Source of the DNA: Alphaproteobacteria bacterium
GTDB taxonomy: Bacteria; Pseudomonadota; Alphaproteobacteria; Ferrovibrionales; Ferrovibrionaceae
Direction of reading: 5' to 3'
Assembly (NCBI GenBank): GCA_017307375.1
Contig: JAFKFH010000010.1
Location: forward strand, 248,001-312,000
DNA length: 64,000 bases
Both the position numbers and the translations under genes were made by a program. Below, in pieces: positions 50,133 through 61,059 of this stretch. How positions within the stretch are numbered: the first letter of the stretch is position 1; each line of letters begins with the position of its first letter. The notes under the pieces were generated by a model. That model was not told the origin of the DNA and made no database searches. It saw only the letters and a program-made list of their open reading frames with translations.

Positions 50133-51251
50133 TCATGCCCGCTGCCGGAACGACGGATGCCAGAAGGTGAACCGTCTTTCGAGCAGCGCCAGCAAACCGT
50201 AGAAGGCCGAGCCCGCCACCGCCGCGACGGCGATCGTGGCCCAGACCATCGAGATATTCATCCGCCCCACCTCGGTCGAGATGCGGAAGCCCATGCCCAG
50301 AATCGGCGTACCGAAGAACTCGGCGACGATGGCGCCGATCAGGGCGAGAGTCGAGTTGATCTTGAGCGCGTTGAAGATGAACGGCATTGCGGCAGGAAGC
50401 CGCACGCTGACCATGGTCTGGCCATAGGAGGCCGCATAGGTGCGCATCAGGTCGCGCTCGATATGGCTGGTCGCGGCCAGTCCGGCGATGGTGTTCACCA
50501 GCATCGGGAAGAACGTCATGATGACGACGACGGCGGCCTTCGACTGCCAGTCGAAGCCGAACCACATCACCATGATCGGCGCCACCCCGACGATCGGCAG
50601 CGCCGAGACCAGGTTGCCGACCGGTAGCAGGCCGCGTTGCAGGAACGGCGACCGGTCGACCAGGATCGCGACCACGAAGCCCGCGGCGCACCCCATCAGG
50701 TAGCCGGGGATCACCGACTTGACGAAGGTCTGCACGAAATCCTCGGCCAGCGTGCGCTGGGCCTCGACCAGCGCATGGCCGATCATCGACGGCGCCGGCA
50801 GCAGCACCGGCGGAATGGCAAAGCCCTGGGTGATCACCTGCCACAGATAGAGCAGCCAGGCGCCGAACAGCGCCGGCACGGCCAGGTTGGCGGCTTTCGA
50901 GCCGGTCTCGTGGCCGAAGGTCGCCAGCCGTTCCATCGCCCGCCAGGCGAGGAAACCCAGCGCCAGCACCGCGCACCACAACCCCGGTGCATCGACGCCC
51001 CCGGCCCCGGCGCCGATCAGGCGCAACGGCACGAAGGCGGCGACGACCGTCGCGACCAGCGCCAGCCCGGTGGCGACACCGATCGCCGGCGGCAGGATGA
51101 CGAGCCAGGCGGCAATGCCGAGGGCCAGCGCCCACAGGAAGGCCGACAGCCCGTGGGCGGTCCAGGCCGAACCGCCGCCGAGCGGCAGCGCGAAACCGAT
51201 CAGCCCGAGGGCGATGAAGCAGATCAGCGCAAAGTCGCGGCGGGCGCTCAT
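50133..51251 (-). CDS. ABC transporter permease (SsuC/TauC-type), longer subunit
   Basis: Inner-membrane permease of 372 residues. The first 115 residues add three or four extra hydrophobic spans in front of the standard binding-protein-dependent permease domain, which contains LMRTYAASYGQTMVSVRLPAA, the EAA-loop region. The start ATG 51251 overlaps the stop of the partner permease. The extended N-terminus is unusual for TauC-type subunits. Confidence 0.87.
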   Translation of the reverse strand: MSARRDFALICFIALGLIGFALPLGGGSAWTAHGLSAFLWALALGIAAWLVILPPAIGVATGLALVATVVAAFVPLRLIGAGAGGVDAPGLWCAVLALGFLAWRAMERLATFGHETGSKAANLAVPALFGAWLLYLWQVITQGFAIPPVLLPAPSMIGHALVEAQRTLAEDFVQTFVKSVIPGYLMGCAAGFVVAILVDRSPFLQRGLLPVGNLVSALPIVGVAPIMVMWFGFDWQSKAAVVVIMTFFPMLVNTIAGLAATSHIERDLMRTYAASYGQTMVSVRLPAAMPFIFNALKINSTLALIGAIVAEFFGTPILGMGFRISTEVGRMNISMVWATIAVAAVAGSAFYGLLALLERRFTFWHPSFRQRA

Positions 51252-52177
51252 GGCCGGGCCCCCATGTGGCGCAGGGTGATGCGCTCGACCAGCCCGACCA
51301 GCGCGACCGACAGGCCGGCCAGCACGGCGGCACCGATCAGCGCCGCCCAGATCTGGATGGTCTGGCCATAATAGGAACCCGCCAGCAGCCGGGCGCCGAT
51401 GCCGGCCTGGGCGCCGGTCGGCAGTTCGCCGACGATCGCGCCGACCACGGCCAGCGCCACGGCGACCTTGAGGCTGGCGAACAGATACGGCAGCGCCGAC
51501 GGCCAGCGCAGCATGAAGAAGGTCTGGCCGGTCGAGGCCGAATAGGTCCGCATCAGGTCGAGCTGGATCGGTTCGGGCGAGGTCAGCCCCTTGACCATGC
51601 CGATGGTGACCGGGAAGAAGCACAGATAGGCGGAGATGAAGGCCTTCGGCACCAGCCCGACGATGCCGACGGCTGCCAGCACCACGATGATCATCGGCGC
51701 GATCGCCAGAATCGGAATGGTCTGCGACGCGATGATCCAGGGCATCAGCGAGCGTTCGAGGGTGCGGACATGGACGATGCCGACGGCCAGCACGATGCCG
51801 AGCAGCGCCCCCATCGCAAACCCGAGCAGCGCGGAGGAGAGCGTGACCCAGGCGTGGTAGACCAGGCTGCGCCGCGAGGTCGGGTCGATCTGGAAGACGG
51901 TCTTGTTCAGTTCGAACGCCACCTGATGGGGCGCGGGCAGGATCGGGCGTTCCATCGCCCAGGCATCGGCGATCAGCTCCTGGGTGGTGACGCCGGCGCG
52001 GCCGGCGCGCTCGTAGCTGTCGCGCAGCACCGGGGCGTTGAGGAAGATCGCGGCCACATACCAGATCAGCACCACGGCGGCGGCGATCGTCAGGATCGGC
52101 AGGGTCGAACCGGCAACCAAGCGGGCGACGAGGCCGTCTTCGGCCGCGCGCGGCCGGGGCAGCGCCTCAGTCCTCAT
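51248..52177 (-). CDS. ABC transporter permease (SsuC/TauC-type), shorter subunit
   Basis: Permease of 309 residues with about six spans and the coupling region [21 protein letters not shown], paralogous to the neighbouring permease. An unusual periplasmic stretch of about 70 residues follows the first span ([20 protein letters not shown]). Overlaps the ATPase gene by 11 bases and the next permease by four. Together they form a heterodimeric channel. Confidence 0.88.
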
Positions 52178-52997
52178 AGGAATGTCCCGCGCGCAGGCCT
52201 TCGCGCACCCGGTGCGCGATTTCGGCGAAACGCTGGCTTTCGCGGATGTCGAGGGTGCGGTTGGCCGGCAGGTCGGATTCGATGATGTCGATGATACGGC
52301 CCGGACGCGGGCTCATGACGACGATCTTGGTCGACAGGAACACCGCCTCGGGGATCGAGTGGGTGACGAAGACTACGGTCTTGTTCGTGCGCTCCCACAG
52401 GCGCAGCAGCTGCTCGTTCAGATGGTCGCGGATGATCTCGTCCAGCGCGCCGAACGGTTCGTCCATCAACATCAGCTCGGGGTCGAACGACAAGGCGCGG
52501 GCGATCGAGACGCGCTGCTGCATGCCGCCGGAAAGCTGCCAGGGAAACTTGCGCTCGAAGCCCTTGAGGTTGACGAGGTCGAGGACCCGGGCGGCACGCT
52601 CCAGCCGCTCGGCCTTGGCCACGCCCATGATCTCGAGCGGCAGGGTGATGTTGCGCAGCACCGTGCGCCAGGGATAGAGCGCCGCGGCCTGGAAGACATA
52701 GCCGTAGGCCCGGGCGAGGCGGGCGGCTTCGGGGCTGATGCCGTTGACGCGAACGTCGCCGGAAGTCGGCTTCTGCAGATCGGCGATGACCCGCATCAGC
52801 GTGGTCTTGCCGCAGCCGGACGGGCCGATGAAGGAAACGAAGTCGCCCTTGTTGATCGTCAGGTTGACGTCCGACAGGGCGTAGACCGGCGCATCCGCGG
52901 TCTCGAACACGAGGTTGAGCCCCGACACCTCGACGACAGGTCGATCGTAGATCGCCGCGCCAGGGATGCCCGCCTGCATTTTTGCCATCGCCGTCAT
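52167..52997 (-). CDS. ABC transporter ATP-binding protein (SsuB/TauB-type)
   Basis: ATPase of 276 residues. Walker [11 protein letters not shown]-loop [13 protein letters not shown], signature [15 protein letters not shown], Walker [15 protein letters not shown] and switch His in VTHSIPEAV. First gene of the transporter operon. Start ATG 52997 is tentative; ATGs at 52988 and 52979 are possible. Upstream lie a CACAC/GTGTG inverted repeat (53028-53044) and a hairpin, then the carbamoylase gene. Confidence 0.9.
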
Positions 52998-53063
52998 GAT
53001 CCGCGCAATCCGTCCATGCCCAGAGTACACACCAAACCCGTGTGCATTACATCGTTGTTTTAT

Positions 53064-53129: not shown

Positions 53130-54365
53130 TCAGGCCGAGGCGTGGGCCAGCATTGCCCGCATCAGCACGTTGCACCCGGCGGCGAGGTCTTCCGGCGTCG
53201 CGTTCTCGACCTCGTTATGGCTGATCCCGTCCTCGCAGGGGACGAAGACCATCGCGGTCGGGGCGACCTTGCACAGATAGCCCGCGTCGTGGCCGGCCCC
53301 CGAGACGATATCCATATGGCTGTAGCCGGCTTCCTCCGCCGCCTGGCGGACCGAGGCGATGCAGTCGGGATCGAACGGCGCCGGCGGGTTGTACCAGATC
53401 TCGTGCAGGTCATGGGTCAGGCCGAGTTCGGCGCAGACGTCGTTGGTGGCGGCTTCCAGCTCGGCCTTCATCGCCAGCAGCGTCGCGTCGTCCGGGTGGC
53501 GCAGATCGACCGAGAAGAAGACCGAGCCGGGAATGACGTTGCGCGAATTCGGGTTGACCTTGACGAGGCCGACGGTCGAGACCGCGAACGGCGCATGGCC
53601 CAGCGCGATCTTGTTGATGCGATCGACGATGCGCGAGACGCCGAGCATCGCGTCCTTGCGGCGGTTCATCGGCGTGGTGCCGGCATGGCTCTCGACACCG
53701 GTGACCGTGCATTCGAACCAGCGGATGCCCTGGATGCCCTGGACGATACCGATGGTCTTCTTCTCGGCCTCGAGGATCGGGCCCTGCTCGATATGGGCCT
53801 CGAAGAAGGCCTTGAACGGCCGGCCGCCGACCGCGAGGTCACCCTTGTAGCCGATGCGCTCGAGCTCCTCGCCCATCGTCTTGCCGTCGAGATCGGCACG
53901 GCTGAGCCCGTATTCTTCGGTGAAGACGCCGGCGAACACGCCGGACGCGACCATGGCAGGCGCGAAGCGCGAGCCTTCCTCGTTGGTCCAGACCGAGACC
54001 TCGACGGGGGCGTCGGTCTCGTACTTGTAGTCGTTCAGCGTGCGGATGACCTCGAGCCCGGCCAGCACCCCGAAGACGCCGTCGAACTTGCCGCCGGTCG
54101 GCTGGGTGTCGAGATGCGATCCGCAGACGACGGGGGGCAGGTCGTTGTTGCGGCCGGGGCGGCGGGCGAAGATGTTGCCCATGCGATCGACGGTGATGGT
54201 GCAGCCGGCTTCCCTGCACCAGCGCACGAACAGGTCGCGGCCCTGGCGGTCGAGATCGGTCAGCGCCAGCCGGGCGCAGCCGCCCTTCTCGGTGCCGCCG
54301 ATCTGGGCCATCTCCATCAGGCTGTCCCAGAGCCGTTCCTTGTTGACCTGAATGTTCTTGAGCAC
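53130..54365 (-). CDS. Beta-ureidopropionase / N-carbamoyl-amino-acid hydrolase (M20 metalloenzyme)
   Basis: Zn-dependent hydrolase of 411 residues that splits N-carbamoyl amino acids to amino acid, CO2 and ammonia. Metal ligands: His84 in CGSHLDTQPTGGKFDG, Asp95, Glu129/130 in WTNEEGSRF, the His of EAHIEQGP and the late His of GISHNEVENA. Dimer lid block MNRRKDAMLG is present. The start is GTG 54365 with AGGAGG seven bases upstream. Following preTA, its expected substrate is N-carbamoyl-beta-alanine, the third step of reductive pyrimidine degradation; an allantoate or hydantoin role is less likely. Confidence 0.88.
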   Translation of the reverse strand: MLKNIQVNKERLWDSLMEMAQIGGTEKGGCARLALTDLDRQGRDLFVRWCREAGCTITVDRMGNIFARRPGRNNDLPPVVCGSHLDTQPTGGKFDGVFGVLAGLEVIRTLNDYKYETDAPVEVSVWTNEEGSRFAPAMVASGVFAGVFTEEYGLSRADLDGKTMGEELERIGYKGDLAVGGRPFKAFFEAHIEQGPILEAEKKTIGIVQGIQGIRWFECTVTGVESHAGTTPMNRRKDAMLGVSRIVDRINKIALGHAPFAVSTVGLVKVNPNSRNVIPGSVFFSVDLRHPDDATLLAMKAELEAATNDVCAELGLTHDLHEIWYNPPAPFDPDCIASVRQAAEEAGYSHMDIVSGAGHDAGYLCKVAPTAMVFVPCEDGISHNEVENATPEDLAAGCNVLMRAMLAHASA

Positions 54366-54472: not shown

Positions 54473-55750
54473 CTACTCGGCCGCCTTCTGGTTCATCGGA
54501 TTGCGCGGGTCGTCCTTCCAGGTCAGGAAGGGCTTGCCGTTGTCGATCTCCTTCATCGTGATGCAGTTCTCGACCGGGCAGACATGGAGGCAGAGATTGC
54601 AGCCGACGCATTCCTCGTCCACCACCTCGTAGCGCCGGGCGCCGTCGACGCGCAGCGCGCTGATCGCCTGGTGCGAGGTATCCTCGCAGGCGATATGGCA
54701 CAGCCCGCACTTGATGCAGCGGTCCTGGTCGATCTGGGCGACGATCTGGTAATTGATGTTCAGGTGCTGCCAGTCGGTCACGTTCGGCACCGCGCGGGCG
54801 CGGAAGTCCTCGATCCGGCGGTAACCCTTCGAATCCATCCAGTTGGCCAGGCCGTCGTTCATGTCGTCGACGATCGTGAAGCCGTAATGCATGGCCGCGG
54901 TGCAGACCTGCACCGTGCCCGCGCCGAGCGCCATGAACTCCGCCGCATCGCGCCAGGTCTCGACCCCGCCGATGCCGGAGATCGGAATGTTCTTGCATTC
55001 GGGATCGCGGGCGATCTCGGCCACCATGTGTAGGGCGATCGGCTTGACCGCCGGGCCGCAATAGCCGCCGTGAGTGCCCTTGCCGTCGACCGTCGGCTCG
55101 GGCGCCATCAGGTCCAGATTGACCGACGTGATCGAGTTGATGGTGTTGATCAGGCTGACCGCATCCGCCCCGCCCCGCACCGCGGCGCGGGCCGAGGACA
55201 GGATGTTGGTGATGTTCGGCGTCAGCTTGACGATCACGGGCATGCGCGAATACTGCTTGCACCAGCGCGCGACCATCTCGACATATTCCGGCACCTGGCC
55301 GACCGCCGCGCCCATCCCTCGCTCCGACATGCCGTGCGGGCAGCCGAAATTCAGCTCGATCCCGTCGGCCTCGGTATCCTCGATGCGCTTCAGGATGTTC
55401 TTCCAGCTGTCCTCGGTGCAGGGCACCATCAGCGAGACGATCATCGCCCGGTCGGGCCAGTCGCGCTTGACCTGCTTGATCTCCTGCAGGTTGACCTCGA
55501 GGGGCCGGTCGGAGATCAGCTCGATGTTGTTGAAGCCGGCGACACGGTTGCCCTTGTAGCCGATGGCACCGTAGCGCGACGACACATTGACGACGGGCGG
55601 ATCCTCGCCCAGCGTTTTCCAGACCACGCCGCCCCAGCCGGCCTTGAAGGCGCGCACGACGTTATAGGCCTTGTCGGTCGGCGGCGCCGAGGCCAGCCAG
55701 TACGGGTTCGGCGACTTGATGCCGATGAAGTTGGTCGATAGGTCAGCCAT
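54473..55750 (-). CDS. preA: NAD-dependent dihydropyrimidine dehydrogenase subunit PreA
   Basis: Catalytic subunit reducing uracil/thymine to dihydropyrimidines, 425 residues. The FMN/pyrimidine domain has the active-site Cys in FGCPHGMSERGMGA and substrate-loop residues NTINSITSVNLD; the C-terminus carries two 4Fe-4S motifs, CIKCGLCHIAC and CVGCNLCLHVCP. Start ATG 55750 has GGGAGGG upstream and begins MADLSTNFIG, typical of PreA; the frame to 55813 is longer without support. It follows preT by 16 bases. Confidence 0.94.
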   Translation of the reverse strand: MADLSTNFIGIKSPNPYWLASAPPTDKAYNVVRAFKAGWGGVVWKTLGEDPPVVNVSSRYGAIGYKGNRVAGFNNIELISDRPLEVNLQEIKQVKRDWPDRAMIVSLMVPCTEDSWKNILKRIEDTEADGIELNFGCPHGMSERGMGAAVGQVPEYVEMVARWCKQYSRMPVIVKLTPNITNILSSARAAVRGGADAVSLINTINSITSVNLDLMAPEPTVDGKGTHGGYCGPAVKPIALHMVAEIARDPECKNIPISGIGGVETWRDAAEFMALGAGTVQVCTAAMHYGFTIVDDMNDGLANWMDSKGYRRIEDFRARAVPNVTDWQHLNINYQIVAQIDQDRCIKCGLCHIACEDTSHQAISALRVDGARRYEVVDEECVGCNLCLHVCPVENCITMKEIDNGKPFLTWKDDPRNPMNQKAAE

Positions 55751-55766
55751 CTGTCGGGCCCTCCCT

Positions 55767-57131
55767 TCAGCCGCGCAGCGCGCGGTCGATCGCCAGCGCG
55801 GCGATCTTGCCATCCTGCACGGCGGCGACGGTCAGGTCCTGCCCGGGCGTGCAGTCGCCGCCGGCCCAGACCTTGTCGAGCGAGGTCTTGCCCTCGGCGT
55901 CGACCGCGATCTTGGCGCCCTTCAGCTCCAGCAGGTCACGCCCGTCCTGGCGCAGCGGATCGGGCACGAAGCTCTGGCCGATCGCCTTGAACACCATGTC
56001 GGCCGGAACGGCGAAATGGTCGCCGGTCCCGATCAGCCGGCCGTCTGCGTCGAGCTGGGTGTATTCGAACACCGCCTCGCGCACCGCGCCGCCCTGGCCG
56101 GTCAGCTTGACGGGCCGGGCCCAATGCTTGATGCGCACGCCGTTGACCTGGGCCAGTTCCTGTTCGTGATGGGTCGCGCCCATTTCCGACGGGCCGCGGC
56201 GATAGACCAGCGTCACGTCCTCGGCGCCGAGGCGGCGGATCTGGATGGCGATGTCGATGGCCGTGTTGCCGCCGCCGATCACCACGACCTTGCGGCCGAC
56301 GGGCAGCCGGCCGAAATCATCGGCCTGGCGAAGGTCGGCGATGTAGTCGACCGCGTTCATCACGCCGGCGAGTTCCTCGCCCTCGGCCTCGAGCGCCTTG
56401 ACCCCGGCCAGCCCCATCCCGAGGAAGACCGCGTCGTAGTCGCGCCGCAGGCCGCTCAAGGTGATGTCGCGGCCGAGCGCCTGGCCGGTCCGGATCTCGA
56501 TGCCGCCGATCTTGAGCAGGAAGTCGACTTCCGCGCGGGCGAAATGATCGGGCATCTTGTATTCGGCGACGCCGTATTCGTTGAGGCCGCCGGGATGGGC
56601 CTTGGCCTCGAAGACCACGACGTCATGGCCCAGCATCGCCAGGCGGTGGGCACAGGACAGGCCGGCCGGTCCGGCACCGACGACAGCGACTTTCCGGCCG
56701 GTCAGCGGGGCGCGGGTGAACGGATGCTCGCCCGTCGCCATCAGATGGTCGGTGGCATAGCGCTGCAGGCGCCCGATCGTCACCGGCTTGTTTTCCTGGG
56801 CGTTTCGCACGCAGGCCTGCTCGCAGAGGATCTCGGTCGGGCAGACGCGAGCGCAGGCACCGCCGAAGATGTTGGCTTCGAGGATGCGGACGGCCGAGCC
56901 GCGCACGTTGTCGGTCGCGATCTTCTTGATGAAACCGGGGATGTCGATGCCGGTGGGGCAGGCCTCGATGCAGGGCGCATCGTAGCAGAAATAGCAGCGG
57001 TTGGCTTCGACCAGCGCCGTCTTGCGGTCCAGCACCGGGACCAGGTCGTCGAAGTTCTCGGTATACTGTTCGGCCTTGAGACGGCCGGTGGCGATGTCGG
57101 GGCGGATGTCGATCTCGGACATGTCGCTCAT
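55767..57131 (-). CDS. preT: NAD(P)H-accepting subunit PreT of dihydropyrimidine dehydrogenase
   Basis: Electron-transfer subunit of 454 residues that passes NADH electrons through FAD and Fe-S clusters to PreA. N-terminal cysteines (CYFCYDAPCIEACPTG and GGACARVCP), FAD fold VAVVGAGPAGLSCA, and NAD fold VVVIGGGNTAIDIA are in order. I prefer ATG 57131; GTG 57140 and ATG 57122 are close alternatives. First gene of the operon, facing rutR across two RutR-like operators. Confidence 0.92.
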   Translation of the reverse strand: MSDMSEIDIRPDIATGRLKAEQYTENFDDLVPVLDRKTALVEANRCYFCYDAPCIEACPTGIDIPGFIKKIATDNVRGSAVRILEANIFGGACARVCPTEILCEQACVRNAQENKPVTIGRLQRYATDHLMATGEHPFTRAPLTGRKVAVVGAGPAGLSCAHRLAMLGHDVVVFEAKAHPGGLNEYGVAEYKMPDHFARAEVDFLLKIGGIEIRTGQALGRDITLSGLRRDYDAVFLGMGLAGVKALEAEGEELAGVMNAVDYIADLRQADDFGRLPVGRKVVVIGGGNTAIDIAIQIRRLGAEDVTLVYRRGPSEMGATHHEQELAQVNGVRIKHWARPVKLTGQGGAVREAVFEYTQLDADGRLIGTGDHFAVPADMVFKAIGQSFVPDPLRQDGRDLLELKGAKIAVDAEGKTSLDKVWAGGDCTPGQDLTVAAVQDGKIAALAIDRALRG

Positions 57132-57245
57132 GGACGACACCCGATCGAGACTGCCGGCAGATTGCCGACGACAGGTGCCGCGACCGGCACCGATGGCTGG
57201 GGACGAGCATGGTCGAGCATGCTTAAGCCTCCCTGGCTTTATGGT

Positions 57246-57337
57246 TTGACCTAGGCTATCCAGAACCTGACCAATCGGTCAAGTGCCTGGGTAATATCCG
57301 GCCATCCTGACCAAACGGTCAAGAAATTTTTTTGACC
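57246..57337. promoter_or_regulatory. RutR operator array between preT and rutR
   Basis: Two full dyads, TGACCAATCGGTCA (57268-57281) and TGACCAAACGGTCA (57308-57321), are offset by exactly 40 bp, about four helical turns. Half sites TTGACC lie outside them at 57246-57251 and 57332-57337. The E. coli RutR site is TTGACCA-N2-TGGTCAA, so these fit the same protein family. Both divergent genes can be controlled from here, with uracil or thymine as the expected inducer. Confidence 0.8.
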
Positions 57338-57386
57338 GAATCAGCGCTCAATTGGTAAGCATTGCAAAGCACAAAGGTTGATCAAA

Positions 57387-58079
57387 GTGAGCAGCAAGCG
57401 AGCAGGCAGCAGCGCCGCGACAGCGGCCCGGAAGACCGCCCCGAGCGCGGCGGAAACGGCCGAGAAACCGGCCGCCGGCTCGATCCGCGAGCGCAATCAG
57501 GCAATTATTCTCAAGGCGGCCGAACAGGTCTTCGCCAAGAAGGGCTTCAACGGCGCCACCACGGCCGAGATCGCGCGCAAGGCCGGGGTGCCCAAGCCGA
57601 ACCTGCATTATTATTTCGGCACCAAGCAGCAGCTCTACGACAGCGTGATCGAGAACATCCTCGATCTCTGGCTCGGGGCGATGGACGAGATCCAGCCCGA
57701 CGCCGATCCCGCCGAAGCGATCGGCCACTACGTCCAGAATAAAATCCGCGCCTCGCGCGACTGGCCGGATTCGTCGCGGCTGTGGGCGATCGAGGTGATC
57801 GGCGGCGGCCGCCATGTCTCGAACTTCATGAAGGGCCGGCTGCGCAACCTCGTCCGGGAAAAGGGGCAGGTGATGGCCCGCTGGGCGGCGGAAGGCAAGA
57901 TGGACCCGGTCGACCCGGCCCATCTGATGTTCATGATCTGGGCGTCGACCCAGACCTATGCCGACTTCGCCGCCCAGATCGCCGCAGTGCTCGACAGGGA
58001 TGCCGTCGACGACGATGTTTTTCGTGTCGCCGAGCAGACCGTCGTGCGCATCATCCTCAAGGGATGCGGGATCGGCTGA
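57387..58079 (+). CDS. rutR: RutR-type TetR family regulator of pyrimidine catabolism
   Basis: Regulator of 230 residues. After a 30-residue Ala/Lys-rich N-terminal tail comes the helix-turn-helix ILKAAEQVFAKKGFNGATTAEIA and VPKPNLHYYFGTKQQLY, followed by the RutR C-terminal domain (SRLWAIEVIGGGRHVSNFM). GTG 57387 is taken as start because AAGG is correctly spaced; the TTG at 57378 is inside it. Divergent from preTA, with matching operators between, which supports the ligand prediction of a pyrimidine base. Confidence 0.88.
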   Translation: MSSKRAGSSAATAARKTAPSAAETAEKPAAGSIRERNQAIILKAAEQVFAKKGFNGATTAEIARKAGVPKPNLHYYFGTKQQLYDSVIENILDLWLGAMDEIQPDADPAEAIGHYVQNKIRASRDWPDSSRLWAIEVIGGGRHVSNFMKGRLRNLVREKGQVMARWAAEGKMDPVDPAHLMFMIWASTQTYADFAAQIAAVLDRDAVDDDVFRVAEQTVVRIILKGCGIG

Positions 58080-59017: not shown

Positions 59018-59662
59018 ATGACGAAGTCAAGCCGGCAAGCGTTGCCACCGAAACGCGAGCGCACCCGCCGCCAGCTGATCGATGCGGCGATCCGCGTCTT
59101 CGCCGGGAAGGGTGTCGCCAATTCGTCGATCCAGGAAATCGCCGTCGCCGCCGGCGTGGCCAACGGCACGTTCTACAACCACTTCCCGACCAAGGAAGCG
59201 GTCATGGAGGCTGTCGCGGTCCAGACGGCGCGGACCCTGTCGGAACGGATCGACGAGAGCTACCGGCACATCACCGATGCCGCCGAGCGCATGGCCATCG
59301 GCAACCGGCGCTATGTCGGCCTGGCCCTCGACCACCCGGAATGGGCGCGCATGATGATGGACGTCGTGCTGGTCTCGCCCGAACTGATCGAGGTCACCGC
59401 ATCCTATGTCCGGGAAGACCTGCAGCTCGGGATTCGCCAGGGCCGCTTCCGGGTGCCGAGCCAGCTGGCCGCCATGAACGCGATCATCGGCACCTGTACC
59501 GGCGCCATGCGGACGGCGATTGCCGGCACGGTGCCCAAGAACCATGCCCAGGCCACCGCGACCGTGGTGCTGCGCGCCCTGGGCATCGATTTCGACGAAG
59601 CGGCCGAGATCGCCCGCCGGCCGCTGCCGCCGATCCCCGGCGGGCTGGTGCCGCGCGACTAG
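59018..59662 (+). CDS. TetR family transcriptional regulator
   Basis: Regulator of 214 residues: helix-turn-helix from about residue 18 (AAIRVFAGKGVANSSIQEIAVAAG, then ANGTFYNHFPTKEAVMEAV), and a helical C-terminal domain. It probably represses the divergent dioxygenase gene through the dyad between them. Its TAG stop overlaps the stop of the convergent FAD-oxidase gene in the tetranucleotide CTAG (59659-59662). Confidence 0.88.
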   Translation: MTKSSRQALPPKRERTRRQLIDAAIRVFAGKGVANSSIQEIAVAAGVANGTFYNHFPTKEAVMEAVAVQTARTLSERIDESYRHITDAAERMAIGNRRYVGLALDHPEWARMMMDVVLVSPELIEVTASYVREDLQLGIRQGRFRVPSQLAAMNAIIGTCTGAMRTAIAGTVPKNHAQATATVVLRALGIDFDEAAEIARRPLPPIPGGLVPRD

Positions 59663-61059
59663 GGAAAGATCTTGCCCGGGTTGAACAGGCCGTGCGGATC
59701 GAGGGCGGCCTTCACCCGCCGCATCGCCCCGATCGTCGCCTCGCCGCGCATGCGCAGCAAGGCGTCGCGGCGCGAGCGCCCGATGCCATGCTCGGCCGAG
59801 ACCGTGCCGCCCAGTTCGAGCGAGACATCCTCGATCGCCCGTTGCAGCCGAGCCATCAGATCGGGCGTCTGTGCCCCTTGCGGCGCGAGTACATTGAAGT
59901 GGATGTTGCCGTCGCCGAGATGGCCGAACGGCATCGGCGTGCAGCCCGGATCGACCGCGGCGACCGCCGCCCCGGCGCGGACGATGAAGTCGGGAATGGC
60001 GGTCACCGGCACCGCGGTATCGGCCTTGAGGCAGAAGGGCATCGCGATCAGCGTGGCCGGCAGGCCCTCGCGCAGCTTCCAGAACGCCGCGCGCTGGGCC
60101 TCGCTCGTCGCGAGCGCGCCGCCGGTGACCACCCCGTCCTCCATCATCGCGGCCAGCGAGGCTTCGAGGGCGGCAGGCAGGTCGAAGGCCCGGGCGGCCG
60201 TGTCCAGCTCCAGCAGCAGCGTCCACGGCGCCGGCGGGTCGAACGGTTCGCGGGCGCCATCGACATGCCGGCAGACCAGCTCCAGCCCTGCCCGCGGCAG
60301 CAATTCGCAGGCCGAGATCATCTCGCCGAATTCCTCGCGCAGCCGCCGCAGCACGCTGAGTGCATCGGTCACCGCCGCCACGCCGACGCAGGCCGTCGCA
60401 CGCACCACCGGCAGCGGCTGCAGCCGCAAGGTGGCAGCGGTGATCAGGCCCAGCGTGCCTTCCGCGCCCATCAGCAGGTGACGCAGATCGTAGCCGGCGT
60501 TGTTCTTGCGCAGCGGCGCCAGCAGATCAAGGATCGTGCCGTCCGCCAGCACCGCCTCGATCCCCAGCACCTGCTCGCGCGCCATGCCGTAGCGCAGGAC
60601 ATTGTTGCCGCCGGCATTGGTCGACAGATTGCCGCCGATCTGGCTCGATCCGGCCCCGCCGTGATCAAGGCCCAGCAGGCGGCCGGCGTCGCGCGCCGCG
60701 CGCTGGGCATCACCGAGCGTGCAACCGGCCTCCACCGTCATGGTGTTGCCGATCGGGTCGATGGCGCGGATCCGGCGCATCCGCTCGAACGAGACGACGA
60801 TGCTGGCCTGCGACGGCGTCGCCCCGCCCGCGAGACCGGTGCCGCCGCCGCGCGGCACGATGGGAATGCCGGCCCTGGCGCAGGCGGCAACCACGGCGGA
60901 AACCTCGCCTGCCGTGCGCGGCCGCACCGCGCAGACCACATCGGCGCCCTGCGGATAGGCCAGGTCGCCGCGATAGCCGGCGATGTCGCCGGCCATGTCG
61001 AGGACACCGTCCTCGCCGACGATGGCACGCAGTTCGGAAATCAGGGTCACGGACATCAT
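59659..61059 (-). CDS. FAD-linked oxidase / D-2-hydroxyacid dehydrogenase (GlcD family)
   Basis: Flavoenzyme of 466 residues. The N-terminal FAD domain has VPRGGGTGLAGGA and DHGGAGSSQIGGNLSTNAGG in order; the C-terminal cap contains FGHLGDGNIHFNV and SAEHGIGRSRRDAL, residues that hold metal and substrate carboxylate in D-lactate/D-2-hydroxyglutarate-type dehydrogenases. The exact hydroxyacid is not evident. Two adjacent ATGs occur at the start. Convergent with the TetR gene and sharing CTAG with it. Confidence 0.88.
   Translation of the reverse strand: MMSVTLISELRAIVGEDGVLDMAGDIAGYRGDLAYPQGADVVCAVRPRTAGEVSAVVAACARAGIPIVPRGGGTGLAGGATPSQASIVVSFERMRRIRAIDPIGNTMTVEAGCTLGDAQRAARDAGRLLGLDHGGAGSSQIGGNLSTNAGGNNVLRYGMAREQVLGIEAVLADGTILDLLAPLRKNNAGYDLRHLLMGAEGTLGLITAATLRLQPLPVVRATACVGVAAVTDALSVLRRLREEFGEMISACELLPRAGLELVCRHVDGAREPFDPPAPWTLLLELDTAARAFDLPAALEASLAAMMEDGVVTGGALATSEAQRAAFWKLREGLPATLIAMPFCLKADTAVPVTAIPDFIVRAGAAVAAVDPGCTPMPFGHLGDGNIHFNVLAPQGAQTPDLMARLQRAIEDVSLELGGTVSAEHGIGRSRRDALLRMRGEATIGAMRRVKAALDPHGLFNPGKIFP

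Follow-up and report, generated by a model that had tools for sequence, protein, structure and literature searches.

Two RutR-type operators 40 bp apart between divergent preT and rutR-like genes of an alphaproteobacterium, one of them apparently fused with the preT promoter

The window, by which we mean the whole 64,000-nucleotide stretch of alphaproteobacterial DNA that was analysed, carries a run of minus-strand genes related to pyrimidine degradation and, diverging from them, a plus-strand gene for a RutR-like regulator. Two near-identical inverted repeats, here termed O1 and O2, lie between the two, each with one further copy of the motif TTGACC on its outer side. The features are:

51248-52177, minus strand: ABC transporter permease (Pfam BPD_transp_1)
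52167-53030, minus strand: ABC transporter ATPase (Pfam ABC_tran)
53130-54365, minus strand: hydantoinase/carbamoylase-family amidase (TIGR01879, 434 bits against a cut-off of 204)
54473-55813, minus strand: preA, NAD-dependent dihydropyrimidine dehydrogenase subunit (NF006183, 728 bits against a cut-off of 335)
55767-57131, minus strand: preT-like dihydropyrimidine dehydrogenase subunit (Fer4_20 'Dihydroprymidine dehydrogenase domain II', Pyr_redox_2)
57246-57251, plus strand: left outer TTGACC (GGTCAA on the minus strand), one base past the preT -10
57253-57258, minus strand: predicted preT promoter -10, TAGCCT, 18 bp from the -35
57267-57282, no strand assigned: O1, RutR-type operator CTGACCAATCGGTCAA, a dyad found in 18 of 18 divergent preT-rutR relatives
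57277-57282, minus strand: predicted preT promoter -35, TTGACC, the right half of O1 (from the relatives' layout and a promoter model)
57307-57322, no strand assigned: O2, second RutR-type operator CTGACCAAACGGTCAA, 40 bp from O1
57332-57337, plus strand: right outer TTGACC, probable rutR -35 and best plus-strand promoter match
57356-57361, plus strand: weak candidate rutR -10, TAAGCA, 18 bp from the TTGACC
57387-58079, plus strand: RutR-like TetR-family regulator, GTG start, with AAAGG 9 nt upstream (by eye)

The minus-strand genes fit reductive uracil and thymine degradation. No NCBIfam model was over its cut-off among the matches listed for the preT-like subunit, whose ATG lies at 57131 on the minus strand, nor among those listed for the ABC transporter ATPase and permease (51248-53030), which probably belong to the same operon as the preTA genes. 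The NF006183 match to preA begins at residue 22, and the likely preA start is near 55750. Because the amidase also exceeded the cut-offs of allantoate-amidohydrolase and Zn-hydrolase subfamilies (e.g. NF006769, 680.6 against 452), its substrate is not settled; from the neighbourhood, we infer that it serves the beta-ureidopropionase step. A leader ORF of 30 codons occupies 57128-57220 on the minus strand (ATG at 57220); its ribosome site (CCAGGGAGG) is strong, and its TGA overlaps the preT ATG at 57131 (ATGA). The ribosome site of preT itself is poor, and the overlap suggests that translation of the two frames may be coupled; by eye, the leader ORF is seemingly absent in the nearest relative (locus L088). 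No Rfam family matched in the window at gathering scores.

The regulator carries TetR_C_3 (PF08362, 165 bits, cut-off 25) and TetR_N (PF00440, 59 bits, cut-off 24), the combination by which RutR-like (YcdC-type) regulators are recognised, and among proteins of solved structure it is closest to E. coli RutR (3loc, E 2.6e-46), with 87 of 212 aligned residues identical. Given that it did not reach the cut-offs of the NCBI RutR equivalog models (TIGR03613, 194.2 bits against 368; NF011584, 178 against 230), we name it RutR-like. The accessible part of a study of E. coli RutR assigns DNA contact to K52 and K62 and uracil contact to W77, Y97, W167, Q171, and Q179 (PMC10891134); all seven residues are identical in the regulator, but the alignment does not preserve the E. 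coli tail residues K7 and K11. The genome holds no second RutR-like match at E 1e-30 or better, and RutR-like matches were present in two of 18 genomes of the organism's order, one of these being its own. A peptide-pattern search for close relatives returned two partial matches (57% and 44% over about 50 residues), which were left unused. Another TetR-family gene (59018-59662, TetR_C_40), not of the RutR type, lies 0.9 kb from rutR and overlaps the end of a 466-codon minus-strand ORF at 59659-61059.

A preliminary description of this DNA had reported two nearly identical dyads exactly 40 bp apart, and both are present as described: the cores of O1 (TGACCAATCGGTCA, 57268-57281, centre 57274.5) and O2 (TGACCAAACGGTCA, 57308-57321, centre 57314.5) agree in 13 of 14 letters with centres 40 bp apart, and they are the only zero-mismatch matches of TGACCNNNCGGTCA in the 64-kb window. 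When the 246-bp intergenic region (57141-57386) was shuffled base by base 20,000 times, TGACCN4GGTCA dyads arose at a mean of 0.00015 per shuffle and two of them never arose together (0 of 20,000); with O1 in place, another perfect dyad at 60 bp or less to either side is expected about 1.3e-4 times. Since the shuffles never yield two dyads, the observation of a paired dyad stands, and the pair is far beyond chance. At a tolerance of two mismatches, TGACCNNNCGGTCA is scarcely commoner in the window than in its shuffles (35 matches against a mean of 24, with 5 of 100 shuffles reaching 35). Loose matches of TTGACCNNNNGGTCAA (up to three mismatches) numbered 54 against a shuffle mean of 15 and fell mostly outside promoters, an excess that perhaps stems from codon usage. 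Weak terminator-like hairpins of 5 pairs occur on the plus strand at 57225-57239 and 57308-57330, the latter made up of O2 and the run of T after it. Dyads of the type TTGACCA-N2-TGGTCAA, which we take to be the RutR operator consensus, stand at pyrimidine genes of this genome (O1, O2, and sites at a dihydropyrimidinase and a Bmp transporter gene, described below), and the earlier identification of the pair as RutR-type operators adjoining preTA and a RutR-like regulator is supported.

To place O1 and O2 among relatives, we drew on a search for RutR-like proteins in 385 genomes of the class (E 1e-35 or better), which found matches in 54, the window's own genome included. Within the DNA taken around rutR, 17 genomes from this search had divergent preT and rutR genes, and with G013, the nearest RutR relative (same family, RutR 64% identical), these make 18 divergent relatives. 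Every one of the 18 has an intergenic dyad with at most two mismatches, and in 16 of them, as at O1, this dyad forms TTGAC(C/T)-18 bp-TAnnnT towards preT; at each of the remaining spacers between 10 and 31 bp, TAnnnT occurred in only 0-2 of the 18. A promoter model built without the window gave O1 its best match, with a score of 21.9 against a 99th-percentile null of 11.5 (the null being the best match in random 250-bp stretches of the window). From these comparisons, O1 appears to be a conserved, ancestral operator fused with the preT promoter. As the right half of O1 is the predicted preT -35, RutR on O1 would cover the -35 box, and transcription of preT would start at about 57246 if initiation is assumed 7 nt downstream of the -10. 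A scan for sigma-70 promoters of the E. coli type misses this promoter because TAGCCT is far from TATAAT.

Of all 64 RutR-like matches, a total that takes in paralogues and E. coli, 46 had a dyad of no more than two mismatches in the 900 bp upstream, a few of them apparently by chance, and 18 had none there. The E. coli K-12 rutR gene had one such match in its 900 bp, in agreement with the earlier statement that E. coli RutR normally has single sites.

A search of the whole genome (7.54 Mb) for the same motif showed no genome-wide excess, with 24 dyads at one mismatch or less to TTGACCN4GGTCAA and 29 for the reversed-pattern control, which implies that most of the genomic dyads are chance occurrences. 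For want of an excess, we used the -10 to part likely sites from chance ones, and TAnnnT stood at 18 bp in three of the 24 near-consensus dyads: O1 and two others, O2 not being among them. One of these (C18:314256-314271), the only zero-mismatch TTGACCN4GGTCAA of the genome, reads TTGACC-18-TAGGCT and lies 2.3 kb to the right of the window's end, 75 bp before a D-hydantoinase/dihydropyrimidinase gene, which is the genome's one D-hydantoinase-family match over a curated cut-off (598.9 bits). The other (C16:137975-137990), likewise TTGACC-18-TAGGCT, lies upstream of a gene for a Bmp/PnrA-like substrate-binding protein that adjoins an ABC ATPase gene, probably a transporter for nucleoside or nucleobase uptake. 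A further site (C36) has TAnnnT at 15 bp and was not taken as a promoter. The operator-promoter fusion seen at O1 thus also marks two more probable regulon sites, at the dihydropyrimidinase and PnrA-like genes.

O2 retains 11 of the 12 consensus letters, and no TAnnnT was found near it at spacers of 14-23 bp on either strand. Its centre lies at about -68 relative to the preT promoter, that is, upstream of it, and at about -53 relative to the probable rutR promoter, just upstream. The strongest rival to a bare second operator is that O2 belongs to a second, upstream preT promoter, so that two tandem promoter-operator units would face preTA. Leftward from O2, TTGACC (57322-57317), an 18-bp spacer, and GATATT (57298-57293) make the region's only E. 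coli-type promoter match (9 of 12, where shuffles would give 0.1 such matches), and both the leftward direction and the 18-bp distance to the candidate -10 are those of O1. However, TAnnnT, the hallmark of the genome's preT, dihydropyrimidinase, and Bmp promoters, is missing from this match, which scored 5.4 in the relatives' model, under the 90th percentile of the null (7.5); we therefore judge a second preT promoter to be improbable.

We surveyed paired operators with a perfect-pair pattern at spacings of 19-49 bp in six overlapping genome sets (385, 398, 15, 9, 377, and 61 genomes; 1,149 distinct by count), in which 8, 12, 1, 1, 20, and 17 genomes, respectively, had a match, and the reversed-pattern control had none in any set. 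Of the resulting 51 pair loci, 44 adjoin a RutR-like or preT gene (the window and 43 others); the remaining seven (L092, L093, L115, L116, L117, L119, L120) had no RutR match of at least 33% identity and no PreT and were not counted. L027 was left out in favour of L088, which is the same place, and the spacing of 34 bp at L118, where the pair was not at the assumed place, comes from the pair search. G873, whose second, overlapping pair is without a locus and uncounted, has three TGACCN4GGTCA dyads in steps of 35-36 bp. Among the pyrimidine-linked loci, the shorter spacings are 22 bp (8 loci), 23 bp (1), and 24 bp (2), and the longer ones 31 bp (2), 32 bp (1), 33 bp (23), 34 bp (3), 35 bp (2), and 36 bp (1); the window alone has 40 bp. 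These counts are not independent, given that the genomes are related, all eight 22-bp pairs coming from one genus and many of the 33-bp pairs from few families, and the orders of G302 and G180 (15 and 9 genomes) yielded no pairs beyond those two genomes. With 43 such pairs besides that of the window, double operators are common in Alphaproteobacteria. G013, in contrast to the window, has a single dyad, and together with the unique 40 bp this makes both the O2 copy and its distance look lineage-specific.

The 40-bp spacing bears on the proposal of the preliminary description that the pair, four helical turns apart, acts through cooperative binding or looping. At 10.5 bp per turn, 40 bp computes to 3.81 turns instead of four, and the distance is unique among the 44 pairs, so the conserved, helically phased spacing that would point to looping or cooperative pairs is not seen here; the pairs of relatives at other spacings also indicate that two sites do not need 40 bp. 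The idea of a cooperative complex, or of a short loop or bridged complex over 40 bp with the outer half sites as auxiliary contacts, does draw on the fact that two near-perfect dyads and two outer TTGACC copies within about 92 bp are not chance, and the 22-24 bp pairs of relatives could permit contact between dimers. Against it, the spacing recurs in none of the 43 other pyrimidine-linked pairs, the nearest RutR relative manages with one dyad, and the outer copies, at 21 and 25 bp, share no common register. A length of 40 bp is moreover far below the DNA bending length, which makes a loop unlikely without a tetramer. According to the accessible text on the E. coli protein, RutR elutes as a dimer and binds as one dimer per box (PMC10891134), which leaves no ground for a loop, and we hold this explanation to be quite unlikely.

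The orientation of O2 also sets it apart. All nine pairs at 22-23 bp lie in divergent preT-rutR regions, and in all nine the preT-side dyad has TTGACC-18-TAnnnT and the rutR-side dyad, by eye, aims its TTGACC half at rutR. O2 of the window, also judged by eye, aims its TTGACC half at preT, and it is therefore not the usual rutR operator.

Where the spacing is 31-36 bp (32 pairs), the neighbours are mostly two rutR-like genes side by side or a carbamoylase gene. A TAnnnT stands between the dyads in 24 of these pairs and faces away from rutR in every case; seven lack it, and one was unparsed. Two adjacent RutR-like genes with such an operator pair, usually with the inter-dyad -10 directed away from rutR, were observed in many Alphaproteobacteria (L091, L094, L110, L113, L118, L121, L123-L126, L128, L130-L142). 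A sandwiched arrangement is conceivable in the window as well, with O2 placed immediately past the start site of a rutR promoter that reads rightward, and blocking it: on the plus strand, TAATAT (57292-57297) fits TAnnnT at 19 bp from O1. This element was not taken as a promoter. Its -35 would be CTGACC and its score is only 6.6, and wherever relatives have a sandwiched -10 (24 cases), the promoter faces away from rutR; despite the inter-dyad -10 in those 24 of 32 pairs, we consider a sandwiched O2 a distinctly poor prospect.

Six of the uncounted loci (L092, L093, L115, L116, L119, L120) have TGACCN4GGTCA pairs at 28, 29, 35, or 47 bp; some adjoin a different TetR and a monooxygenase-like gene, and in the others the 3 kb taken gave neither a RutR nor a PreT match. 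In G026 and G159, the genes next to pairs of the same dyad are a monooxygenase-like gene and one for a different TetR (about 24% identical), which lends some substance to the notion that O2 serves another regulator of the TetR family, or is a relic no longer in use. The genome has no second RutR-like match at the E-value given above, however, and the near-intact consensus of O2 speaks against a relic, so we regard both as very unlikely.

The preliminary description had taken the outer TTGACC copies for flanking half sites. The copies are indeed present, at 57246 and 57332, and base composition would predict only about 0.09 copies outside the dyads on either strand. Their placement is uneven, with TGACC starting at 57247, 57268, 57308, and 57333, hence a step of 21 bp from the left copy to O1 and one of 25 bp from O2 to the right copy, and we reinterpret them. 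The right copy, followed 18 bp on by TAAGCA, forms a candidate rutR promoter with a score of 12.3, just above the 99th percentile; this score is partly circular, because the model was trained on the TTGACC halves of dyads, and the -10 score is reached at 3-7% of random positions. For the right copy, a rutR -35 is the likelier reading and a half site the less likely one, though the call is weak. As for the left copy, GGTCA occurs 1-3 nt past the preT -10 in the window and in three of the 18 relatives (G382, G302, and G210, each at 2-3 nt), in a register that differs from that of the window; G057 has GGTCA 11 nt on but is without the preT -10. The left copy is most likely a partial match at the predicted preT start and not a designed half site, and a third, partial operator is possible.

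With moderate confidence, we propose that RutR dimers repress transcription from this region by occupying two operators independently of each other, as at tetO1/tetO2, and that the repression responds to uracil. On O1, a dimer would block RNA polymerase at the preT promoter, as its layout suggests, and uracil or thymine would release the repressor, a response consistent with the conserved contact residues. O2 would be a second operator, without a promoter of its own by the TAnnnT test, that adds independent occupancy (assumed to be non-cooperative) and tightens repression, and it may also let RutR damp its own gene. The extra operator looks ordinary and not like a DNA-loop device. A broader and rather doubtful proposal is that the RutR operator serves across Alphaproteobacteria as a ready-made -35 at a fixed 17-18 bp from TAnnnT, to which second copies have repeatedly been added at 22-24, 31-36, or 40 bp for different logic. 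The outcome would then be dimers that abut, a promoter sandwiched between the dyads, or, in the window, a second operator at a distance that would couple control of preTA and rutR by a so far undescribed arrangement. The natural spacings surveyed provide a ready promoter set for probing the effect of a second operator on dimeric TetR-type repression.

Among known systems, the RutR boxes of E. coli at rutR/rutAG and carAB are described, in the accessible part of the source, as palindromes of about 16 bp bound by a TetR-type dimer with uracil as ligand (PMC10891134). As read from its sequence, the window has in common with them the palindrome of about 16 bp, the TetR-type regulator, and the uracil-contact residues, but its neighbour is the reductive preTA route and not rutA-G, and two boxes stand 40 bp apart in one intergenic region. 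The accessible portion of a 2016 comparative study reports that RutR regulates pyrimidine catabolism in several classes of Proteobacteria, with taxon-specific changes of its motif; a table row there (68 (13), 273, 743) seems to us to count 68 regulators from 13 taxa, with 273 sites and 743 genes, and that portion does not describe operator pairs, their spacing, or a built-in -35 (PMC5343134). In the open literature searched, no title or opening of an abstract dealt with paired RutR operators.

The Tn10 tetR-tetA region, as far as the accessible text of PMC3037858 goes, has two operators that overlap divergent promoters, with no cooperativity indicated. By its sequence, the window likewise has two operators between a divergent repressor gene and its target, but the repressor, ligand, and operator sequence differ, and only O1 clearly overlaps a promoter, O2 being without TAnnnT at 14-23 bp yet having an E. 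coli-type -35 match. With the other alphaproteobacterial double operators, the window shares the dyad and the neighbourhoods (rutR, preT, carbamoylase); theirs are spaced 22-24 or 31-36 bp and that of the window 40 bp, and in those nine that lie between divergent preT and rutR genes, the dyad on the rutR side faces rutR (by eye), whereas O2 faces preT. The locus is a modest variant of a known control region, ordinary in kind and unusual in its spacing.
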